In this document: one piece after another, positions 49,361 through 52,978 of the stretch
How positions within the stretch are numbered: position 1 is the first letter of the stretch
How the letters are laid out: every line of letters begins with the position of its first letter
Origin: an uncultured Spirochaetales bacterium
Lineage (GTDB): Bacteria; Spirochaetota; Spirochaetia; Sphaerochaetales; Sphaerochaetaceae
Assembly (NCBI GenBank): GCA_949285145.1
Contig: CASDXQ010000012.1
Coordinates: 1-62,540, forward strand
Length of the DNA: 62,540 nt
Direction of reading: 5' to 3'
Notes under the pieces: generated by a model
What the model was told of the DNA's origin: nothing
The model's database searches: none
What the model saw: only the letters and a program-made list of their open reading frames with translations
Made by a program: the position numbers and the translations under genes

Positions 49361-50500
49361 TCATAAATTCTGGTATTCAATCGGTACTTGCATATAATTG
49401 ACTCCCAGACCGAATAAAGCATTAAGTTTGCCAAGATATTCTTCTGAATCTTTTGTTTCAGAGAATCTCGATACAATACAAAGATTTACACCTTCAAATG
49501 AAGAAGTATTCCAAAGTTTATATTCTAAAAGCTGTCCAATAGCCTGTCTGATACAAGATCTAATATCCATTCCAGTTTTAATCTCATAATATGTACGTTT
49601 ATCATTATCATTCGGATCAGACCACATAACAACATCTATAGATCTGTTATCTGTAAGGGGAACCTCTGCCTCAACTCTGCATGACGGATATTTTTCCTTA
49701 AGCATATCAATAAGTCTGGCCTGAATACGCGCATGCAAACGCTCTGATATCGTTGTATGATCAGAAACCGTTATAGTCACTGGTGCTGTATTAGGCACCC
49801 CTCTTCCCATTCCTGAAATCTGATTTTTACTGGAAGTCGGTGATGTTTTTGCAGGAGCTTGTAACTCTTTTGGATTAACCATATAAAGATAAAGAGGTCT
49901 AAGTTTTTCAAGCATATCAAGAATATTTTTCCAGGTAACCCCGTTTGTCTTCTCATATTCAATCATGGAACCAAAAAAGATGAACGCATTCTTTTCAAGT
50001 GCTTTTGCGTATAATCTGTCAGAATTCTCTATAATAGTAGTATTATTTTGCAGAGTCCAATAATAAAACTTGCAATCTGCAAAAACATCCATATTATCTT
50101 CAGTATATTCACCTAGACGACAAAATGCTCTTCTTAAAGTTTCACTTTCTATAGCATGTGGCATACTCATGCTTTCCTGAAAGGAGATAGCTATCCCATA
50201 ACGGAGTCTACCATCTTCTAACGCAATATTGTACTGAGGATATTTTCTTCCATTATACTGAATAATATACTGGCTATCATTACTCATAATTCTGAAAAAT
50301 TTCTTCCTTTCTCTATATTTCTCCTGTTCTTCGGGGTAATTTGATCTGATAAAGTGAAATATATCCAACATCTGAGAATAGTCAGAGCAAATATACTTAT
50401 TCAGAGTTTCCGCAATCTGAGCAATAGCTCTACATTCATTGTCATGGTCTCCTCTGCTCGGCTTGTTGATATCTTTCCATATATAATCCTCAATACCCAT
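49361..50500 (-). CDS. Orphan protein with C-terminal PD-(D/E)XK nuclease-like domain
   Basis: A 379-residue protein in AT-rich DNA. Residues 1-215 form a mixed domain I do not recognise. A Ser/Thr-rich linker (about 218-245) follows. Residues 250-379 carry SIDVVMWSDP then YYEIKTG (D...ExK) and RQAIGQLLEYKLW, the typical core of PD-(D/E)XK nucleases. AAGGAGT precedes the ATG. No methyltransferase or helicase partner is adjacent. A defence or restriction role is plausible but unproven. The gene is flanked by gene-poor DNA on both sides, and its AT-rich codon use differs from neighbouring operons, which indicates acquisition. Confidence 0.7.
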   Translation of the reverse strand: MGIEDYIWKDINKPSRGDHDNECRAIAQIAETLNKYICSDYSQMLDIFHFIRSNYPEEQEKYRERKKFFRIMSNDSQYIIQYNGRKYPQYNIALEDGRLRYGIAISFQESMSMPHAIESETLRRAFCRLGEYTEDNMDVFADCKFYYWTLQNNTTIIENSDRLYAKALEKNAFIFFGSMIEYEKTNGVTWKNILDMLEKLRPLYLYMVNPKELQAPAKTSPTSSKNQISGMGRGVPNTAPVTITVSDHTTISERLHARIQARLIDMLKEKYPSCRVEAEVPLTDNRSIDVVMWSDPNDNDKRTYYEIKTGMDIRSCIRQAIGQLLEYKLWNTSSFEGVNLCIVSRFSETKDSEEYLGKLNALFGLGVNYMQVPIEYQNL

Positions 50501-51112: not shown

Positions 51113-51114
51113 AA

Positions 51115-51210
51115 TAAAAAACCCCTAGCGGAAAAAAGGAGGTAAACCGCTGTAGGGGAACAAAAGGAGGTAAATTTTTAATCGGAAACTTGCTGTTTCC
51201 TCTGTGTTAT
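51115..51210 (-). ncRNA. Candidate small RNA with two anti-Shine-Dalgarno motifs
   Basis: A ~96-base transcript is predicted on the minus strand from a promoter at 51217-51245 to a U-tract at 51116-51121. From its 5' end it has a hairpin GGAAAC-AGCAA-GTTTCC, an AU-rich single strand containing ACCUCCUU (complement of 51164-51171), then a terminator stem (CCCCTA/TAGGGG plus GCGG/CCGC with a two-base bulge) whose loop contains a second ACCUCCUU (complement of 51136-51143). ACCUCCUU is the 16S rRNA anti-Shine-Dalgarno core. No open frame fits on this strand. pfkA has its own terminator upstream, so this is an independent unit. Confidence 0.7.
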
Positions 51211-51216
51211 GGCCTA

Positions 51217-51245
51217 ACAATAATAGAATACGAATTTTATGTCAA
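51217..51245 (-). promoter_or_regulatory. Promoter of the candidate anti-Shine-Dalgarno small RNA
   Basis: A perfect TTGACA (51240-51245) and TATTGT (51217-51222) are separated by 17 bases on the minus strand. The start point would be near 51210. Confidence 0.7.
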
Positions 51246-51591
51246 TATACTTTTTAAAAATTTGTATACAAATTTCTTTTTTTTATGCGAACAAGACGTT
51301 ATTTTTATTGTCCTGTACAGTATCTTGTCTGCTATTTATTTATAATGTAACCTTTTAAAAATTAAATCCCTTTTTGTGAAAATCATGGAAAATTTTTAAA
51401 TTTTTTATCTGCCAATGATTTTCTTCCAGATCTGCAAAAAGAGAACAATGTATTTAAACGGAAAATGATGACTTTCTCCGGCTCTTGGATCATGCGTATC
51501 CATATGGAACAGACATACAATGTTCAGAGATTTGTCTTCGTCCGTTCCTGTTCTTCTATGACTAAGAAAATACAGACGAAAAGAGACAGAA
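51246..51591. other. AT-rich intergenic stretch upstream of the small RNA
   Basis: About 345 bases of AT-rich DNA with a near-palindrome around TTTGTATACAAATT (51260-51275). A 63-codon minus-strand frame at 51405-51596 has no support. Confidence 0.4.
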
Positions 51592-51625
51592 TACAAAACA
51601 TGCCGGGCAGTCTCGTCCCGGCATG
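51592..51625 (-). terminator. Terminator of the pfkA operon
   Basis: CATGCCGGG (51599-51607) pairs perfectly with CCCGGCATG (51617-51625), followed by UUUUGU in the minus-strand RNA. Confidence 0.9.
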
Positions 51626-51652: not shown

Positions 51653-52978
51653 TCAGTTCTTCATACTGAATGGCTGTCTTGTATTCTCAAGAACATCTCT
51701 CCACAGTGAGCCTTCGATATCCACATGGCTTCTCTTGGACACTGCCTGCCTGATCGGCAGATAGACAAACTGATTGTTCACGCGGCTCACAAGACATCTT
51801 GTCTTTCCTGCCATTGCGGCATGAACGGCATGAGCACCGAGACGTGCACAGTAAATCGAGTCATAGCTGTTGGCAGGAGCAGAGCGGATGATATAGGAGG
51901 GATCAATATACTTCACGGAAGTGGGAATACCCTCATCTTTGAAGTACTGCTTGATTCTTTCTTTCAGGAAAATGCCGATATCATGATACTTGATGTTTCC
52001 TGATGCATCGGTCTCTCCTGTGGGAGGTGCGAATTCCTGACCAGCTCCTTCTGCAACGAGGATGACAGCATGTCCGCGCTCAAGGATTCTTCTCTTGAGG
52101 TTCTCAAGCAGGCCGTTGGGGCCGTCAAGGTCAAACGGACTCTCGGGAATCAGACAGAAATTCACGTCTGACTGGGCAAGAGAAGTGTGTGCGGCAATGA
52201 AGCCGGACTCACGTCCCATGACCTTTACAAGGCCGATGCCGTTGATTGAGTTCTTCGCTTCAACATGTGCTCCACGCACCGAAGGAACGGCAGATGTGAC
52301 TGCCGTATCAAAACCGAATGAGGAATCAATGAAGCTGAGATCATTGTCTATCGTCTTTGGAACGCCTACGACCGCGATTTTGAGACCGCGTTTCTTTATC
52401 TCCTCTCCGATATCATAGGCGCCTCGCAGCGTGCCGTCGCCTCCGATCGTGATGAGAATGTTTATATTCAGTCTTTCAAGCGAATCGACGATCTCCTCAA
52501 CCTGCTTTCCGCCACCGCGGGCCGAACCGAGGATGGTTCCGCCCTTCTCCTGGATATCATCAACAACATCCGGATCAAGAGGGATCAGAGGCCATGCGGA
52601 ATTCTCAAGAAGCCCCAGATAGCCGTACTGTATGCCCGATATTCTCCTTACGCCGTAGCGGTACCAGAAACAGCGCACGACTGCCCTGATGACATTGTTG
52701 AGTCCCGGACAGATTCCGCCGCAGGTACAGATGGCGGCATGCACATGACTGGGGTTGAAGTAGATCTTCTCTCTGGGTCCTGCGACTTCCATGGCATCTT
52801 CATGCACAGGCTGGCGTCTTCCATCCACAATCTCCGTGTCGATTGAATAAAGCACCTTGTCGCTGTCGTTCACATAATCAGCCATACCGTCGCCGCCGCT
52901 TTTGCTCATGCGGATCGGAGACTGGAGCTTTGCCTCTCCCAGTGTTTCAATATCGAAATCATAAAGACGATCACCCAT
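51653..52978 (-). CDS. pfkA: ATP-dependent 6-phosphofructokinase (clade X type)
   Basis: A 441-residue phosphofructokinase with an N-terminal extension of about 80 residues. The phosphate-donor site reads GGDGTLRGA; Gly after GGD indicates ATP, whereas pyrophosphate enzymes have GGDD. The catalytic loop is PKTIDND, as in the PPi-like but ATP-using clade X found in spirochaetes and trypanosomes. MGRESGFIAAH and AEGAGQEF are conserved substrate-site blocks. It commits fructose 6-phosphate to glycolysis, with pgi also in this window. The start overlaps the ModE-like gene by eight bases; a strong terminator follows. Confidence 0.92.
   Translation of the reverse strand: MGDRLYDFDIETLGEAKLQSPIRMSKSGGDGMADYVNDSDKVLYSIDTEIVDGRRQPVHEDAMEVAGPREKIYFNPSHVHAAICTCGGICPGLNNVIRAVVRCFWYRYGVRRISGIQYGYLGLLENSAWPLIPLDPDVVDDIQEKGGTILGSARGGGKQVEEIVDSLERLNINILITIGGDGTLRGAYDIGEEIKKRGLKIAVVGVPKTIDNDLSFIDSSFGFDTAVTSAVPSVRGAHVEAKNSINGIGLVKVMGRESGFIAAHTSLAQSDVNFCLIPESPFDLDGPNGLLENLKRRILERGHAVILVAEGAGQEFAPPTGETDASGNIKYHDIGIFLKERIKQYFKDEGIPTSVKYIDPSYIIRSAPANSYDSIYCARLGAHAVHAAMAGKTRCLVSRVNNQFVYLPIRQAVSKRSHVDIEGSLWRDVLENTRQPFSMKN

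Follow-up and report, generated by a model that had tools for sequence, protein, structure and literature searches.

A predicted small RNA family with two anti-Shine-Dalgarno motifs in the class Spirochaetia

A short locus in the genome of an uncultured member of the Sphaerochaetaceae probably represents a new, Spirochaetia-wide family of independent, trans-acting small RNAs (sRNAs) of approximately 95 nt. The sRNA carries two accessible copies of ACCUCCUUUU and would repress selected mRNAs at their Shine-Dalgarno (SD) sequences, likely in a sugar-related setting; we assign this reading a probability of roughly 0.75. Positions refer to the whole stretch of DNA analysed, 62,540 nt in length and hereafter called the window.

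Anatomy of the locus

The sRNA gene was intergenic and encoded on the minus strand, with its own predicted promoter and rho-independent terminator and an accessible SD-complementary sequence, as in the functional class of anti-SD sRNAs. The promoter (TTGACA-17-TATTGT, 51245-51217, minus strand) consisted of a -35 hexamer at 51240-51245 and a -10 hexamer at 51217-51222, spaced by 17 bp. It aligned with the promoters of other members of the genus, and the TTG of the -35 hexamer was found in 14 of 14 genus sequences. The predicted transcript of approximately 95 nt (51115-51210, minus strand) was delimited from promoter and terminator positions and from homologues, its start being placed approximately 7 nt past the -10 hexamer and its end at the U run. 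The only small open reading frame (ORF) within it was a 16-residue TTG frame.

The predicted fold comprised a 5' hairpin (GGAAAC/GUUUCC, 51184-51200, minus strand), an unpaired, AU-rich segment bearing the first anti-SD motif (ACCUCCUU, 51164-51171) and a terminator stem-loop (CCCCU..AGCGG / CCGCU..AGGGG, 51122-51158), in the 15-nt loop of which the second motif was located (ACCUCCUU, 51136-51143). The stem was followed by a run of six U (51116-51121), which was retained in homologues. Both copies of ACCUCCUUUU, the one in the single strand and the one in the terminator loop, were unpaired in the fold. The fold z-score was only -1.6, a modest value due to the shortness of the hairpins. The sequence-only reading had described the promoter with its perfect -35 hexamer, the GC stem, the U6 run and two exposed motif copies, and all of these were found where it had placed them. 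The 8-mer ACCUCCUU occurred three times in the window, against an expectation of 1.67, so that the count alone was unremarkable; two copies at most 40 nt apart on one strand were seen in none of 300 simulated windows. On the other side of the window's sRNA locus from pfp, the phosphofructokinase family gene discussed below, a minus-strand gene (49361-50500) encoded a 379-aa protein without a Pfam match.

Distribution, conservation and covariation

The reality of the sRNA is settled by its conservation, since the motifs were near-invariant while their flanks drifted. In BLAST searches with the element, all 15 genomes sampled from the genus (Bullifex/Aphodenecus) gave a match, and the core was recovered in further genera and families as well. 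A first covariance model (R1) detected the sRNA in 40 of 44 sampled Sphaerochaetaceae genomes and in 140 of 297 genomes of the class Spirochaetia at E ≤ 1, approximately 70 of them below 1e-3. A second model (R2) reached a group of 2.8-Mb genomes, in one of which the TD-1 RNA family lay nearby; these genomes probably represent the T. denticola group. The sampled genomes of a Borrelia-like family (f19) and a 1.1-Mb, T. pallidum-like genome (f24) gave no match. As a control outside the phylum, approximately 85,000 species were scanned for the two-motif pattern. This yielded 114 loci, approximately 107 with the whole sRNA anatomy; the sRNA members among the 80 matches listed by title were all spirochaetes, and the few outsiders were without a hairpin or U run. 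No Rfam family fitted the sRNA at gathering or permissive thresholds, and no report of this spirochaete RNA was found in the open-access literature.

Single UUUCCUCCUUU-type-loop terminators, without the full upstream motif, were also observed in distant spirochaete families (L027, L186, L190, L192, L201, L210, L222, L223, L226, L228 and L229), and sometimes shared a genome with the two-motif gene (G048). Either paralogy or membership in a broader class of anti-SD terminator loops may account for them.

Among 14 sequences of the genus, ATTTACCTCCTTTTGTTCCCC and CGGTTTACCTCCTTTT were nearly or fully invariant. In the alignment of 84 homologues, ACCUCCUUU was present at the place of the first motif in 71, and GUUU(N0-3)ACCUCCUUU at the second in 75; the U-rich flanks of the motif were conserved too. 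Two CCUCC strings were found in 71 of the 84 homologues. The first was unpaired in 71 of 71, and the few cases of low accessibility for the second were strings lying in a stem arm.

The terminator stem varied while both motifs stayed fixed. Across the 84 homologues, aligned by fitting to the model and hence with numbers biased in its favour, 95.5% of the stem cells were paired and 101 were double changes, compared with 25 after shuffling. None of 500 shuffles gave as many double changes, slid controls reached at most 15, and the covariation score was threefold the mean of the shuffles. The signal was lost when the partner was shifted by a single column. The same compensation was visible by eye in unfitted lists of homologues. 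In the 2.8-Mb genome group, two CCUCCUUU motifs were accompanied by a wholly changed stem (CCCGACAGG/CCUGUCGGG). The arms of the 5' hairpin changed jointly in relatives as well (GGGAAC/GUUCCC, AAGGGA/UCCCUU, AUCAGGA/UCCUGAU). The loss of both stem and motifs in relatives, which the sequence-only reading had named as grounds for giving up its proposal, was looked for; both had been kept. The homologues, the covariation and the recurrent promoters and terminators lend strong support to the proposal itself, an independent small RNA with two exposed anti-SD copies.

The 16S rRNA gene was absent from the window's own assembly, and the 16S sequences of relatives were therefore used for comparison. 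The motif equals the 9 nt that end 16S rRNA in these relatives, and GGATCACCTCCTTT was found in 5 of 12 genomes tested. The sRNA could imitate the 3' tail of 16S rRNA and have a protein or the ribosome as its partner instead of mRNAs, titrating an anti-SD-binding factor or damping initiation everywhere. Its identity to the tail over ACCUCCUUU, a depth of conservation unusual for a base-pairing sRNA and the conserved U-rich flanks would all fit such a role. However, the conserved block ends at ACCUCC; the homologues lacked the preceding GAUC of 16S rRNA, a part of the Era site. Moreover, known RNAs of such a layout act on mRNAs, and we consider such mimicry unlikely. A decoy or titration role for the sRNA is possible, if conjectural.

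No Hfq gene (PF17209) turned up in any of 41 genomes, while the search did recover it from the controls E. coli and B. subtilis. The sRNA probably acts without Hfq.

Glycolytic neighbours and a probable upstream operator

In the window, pfp (51653-52978, minus strand; PF00365, E 5e-65) lies upstream of the sRNA on the same strand, as a neighbour and not as part of the RNA. A phosphofructokinase (PFK) gene adjoined the sRNA in 42 of 85 homologous loci, usually upstream and on the same strand. The glucose-6-phosphate isomerase gene pgi (PF00342) was a neighbour in 26 of the 85, downstream and convergent and often followed by argR. At least one of the two genes was present in 48 of 85 loci, and both in 20.

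With a PFK gene at about half of the loci, and with single-loop CCUCCUUU terminators elsewhere in the phylum, the element might simply belong to pfp, as its strong terminator or as part of its 3' UTR, with an incidental anti-SD loop. Four observations make this improbable. A hairpin and T-rich tail of its own, read by eye, follow pfp at 51599-51625; the sRNA is also found at loci without a pfp neighbour; conservation is as strict for the motif in the single strand as for the one in the hairpin; and the sRNA's own promoter recurs. Promoter-like -35/-10 blocks were present 5' of the sRNA in several Sphaerochaetaceae groups, as CTTGATT..TA..GT in Sphaerochaeta-like genomes, TATATT -10 boxes in Ornithospirochaeta-like genomes and TATTG.. 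in a third group. Given the recurrent promoter and the separate pfp hairpin, the sRNA is most likely an independent gene and not a processed piece of pfp. The perfect SD strings on the opposite strand (AAAGGAGGTAAA, two copies) might be taken to serve a plus-strand gene, a reading refuted by the lack of a start codon with an open frame after either copy and at odds with a promoter, terminator and compensatory stem that are all oriented on the minus strand.

A palindrome, TTTGTATACAAA (51261-51272), lies just 5' of the -35 hexamer and is a probable operator. Its 8-base centre, TGTATACA, was invariant in 14 of 14 genus loci. The only other exact copy of TTTGTATACAAA in the genome was located before a gene for a GntR/FCD regulator, next to a KduI-family gene (L212:732-1430 and 3-716). 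The two sites suggest that the sRNA and the GntR-kduI locus may be under a common carbon-source control. Sugar uptake and catabolism are the likely setting of the sRNA, on account of the pfp/pgi synteny, the operator in common with GntR-kduI, and the ABC-importer genes among the complements described below. A more far-reaching proposal, in which an ancient anti-SD RNA, present class-wide and independent of Hfq, would compete with the 16S tail itself, tune initiation on many messages at once according to sugar status and have been kept beside pfp and pgi since the early Spirochaetia, appears doubtful to us.

Candidate targets and comparison with known anti-SD RNAs

The perfect 9-nt complement of the motif, AAAGGAGGT, had 20 sites in the window's genome, 2 in the sRNA gene and 10 at gene starts. 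Within the window, the full AAAGGAGGT was confined to the sRNA gene, and at least 6 nt of AAAGGAGGTAAA were present at 18 of 60 ORFs. The suggestion that many genes in the window use GGAGG or AAGGAG was too strong, the SDs of window genes being partial. Of the 12-nt complement AAAGGAGGTAAA, the window's genome had no copy outside the sRNA gene; no mRNA there therefore pairs perfectly over the whole motif and its flanks.

When four Bullifex genomes were pooled, 35 genes, a few doubtful ORFs included, had AAAGGAGGT at ribosome-binding-site distance. ABC-importer genes made up 12 of the 35 (8 BPD_transp_1 permeases and 4 solute-binding proteins), against a background of approximately 4% of genes that was taken from a relative in another genus (G036), not from Bullifex. 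In this relative (a 2.2-Mb single contig), permeases were enriched about equally when the 16S tail or the reversed loop was used as a control. Since the controls behaved alike, targets of the sRNA are inseparable in these data from a possible general strong-SD habit of importer genes; SD complements resemble the rRNA tail, and strong importer SDs could thus explain the target list. The best candidate target found was an importer permease gene of Bullifex porci (L290, C1:148526) with an extended, 13-nt perfect complement, AAAAAGGAGGTAAAAATG, before its start; it was the one gene of that species with a match beyond the 9-nt core to the 12-nt complement. RNA duplex estimates were made for four perfect-SD messages and compared with the 16S tail; the messages were the stronger in three of four. 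A perfect AAAGGAGGT site was also observed at a gene of the S30AE family (ribosome hibernation factor; L395, G011).

The favoured mechanism, judged from sequence, is probably the repression of selected and probably transport-related messages. The sRNA would be transcribed from its own promoter as an RNA of approximately 95 nt, and either copy of ACCUCCUUUU would pair with the SD regions of selected mRNAs. Such pairing would block access of the 30S subunit and reduce translation. The copies may be redundant, or may let the sRNA bind two messages; the repressed messages would perhaps encode sugar importers. The global action on translation put forward in the sequence-only reading was unsupported as stated.

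CyaR acts with Hfq in enterobacteria. Another group, the CcsR or 'cuckoo' RNAs of Rhodobacter, has the anti-SD-like CCUCCUCCC in loops; compared by description, these RNAs differ from the spirochaete sRNA in motif and taxon. CyaR (RF00112) resembles the spirochaete sRNA in that it carries ACCUCCUU in the stretch before its terminator, as checked at the E. coli locus, and pairs with the SD of ompX (PMC11795201). However, CyaR has a single full motif, its covariance model gave no match in the window, and model R2 gave none to the CyaR locus at E 0.5.

A close likeness was seen to LhrC1-5 of Listeria (RF00616), RNAs of approximately 111 nt with the same ground plan of hairpin, single strand and terminator. 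LhrC has three CU-rich sites, in a hairpin loop, a single strand and the terminator loop, and represses lapB without Hfq (PMC4132741). Its redundant CUCCC..UUUU sites in the single strand and terminator loop, with coverage of the lapB SD and dispensable Hfq (PMC4132741), are paralleled by the repeated CU-rich site, with predicted SD binding, at both of these places in the spirochaete sRNA. The LhrC model was also the best weak Rfam match and aligned along the whole transcript, at a sub-threshold 23.8 bits compared with a gathering score of 110. In contrast to the ACCUCC of the spirochaete sRNA, the LhrC motif is CUCCC, and Listeria has five LhrC copies. There is no evidence of common descent.

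The NfeR1/alpha-r14 RNAs of rhizobia likewise combine variable stems with an anti-SD motif that is repeated, in identical form, in several unpaired regions. NfeR1 silences mRNAs at the initiation region through three redundant anti-SD motifs, and its tested targets include ABC transporters (PMC10746234). Unlike the spirochaete sRNA, which has two ACCUCCUUUU copies, one of them single-stranded, this alphaproteobacterial group has three hairpins each with CCUCCUCCC; no sequence match to it was found, nor an Rfam match at the gathering threshold. By analogy, the spirochaete sRNA probably follows the same working principle as LhrC, NfeR1 and CyaR. We would classify it as a new family within the known anti-SD kind, outside the sequence families of these three; it is set apart from known anti-SD sRNAs by its depth of conservation, its exact rRNA identity and its glycolytic synteny.

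With three CU-rich SD-binding sites in LhrC and three anti-SD loops in NfeR1, the two motif copies, which the sequence-only reading called striking, are not in themselves without parallel; the surprise lies in the class-wide conservation. Base-pairing sRNAs are usually quick in turnover, and an sRNA kept over many families of one class, with near-invariant seeds and recurrent synteny, is rare. To our knowledge, work on spirochaete sRNAs has mostly been confined to Borrelia and Leptospira. Since no Hfq was found in the 41 genomes, the sRNA would offer a natural case of SD-directed control without the Hfq chaperone, and it would give spirochaetes a tractable core regulator.
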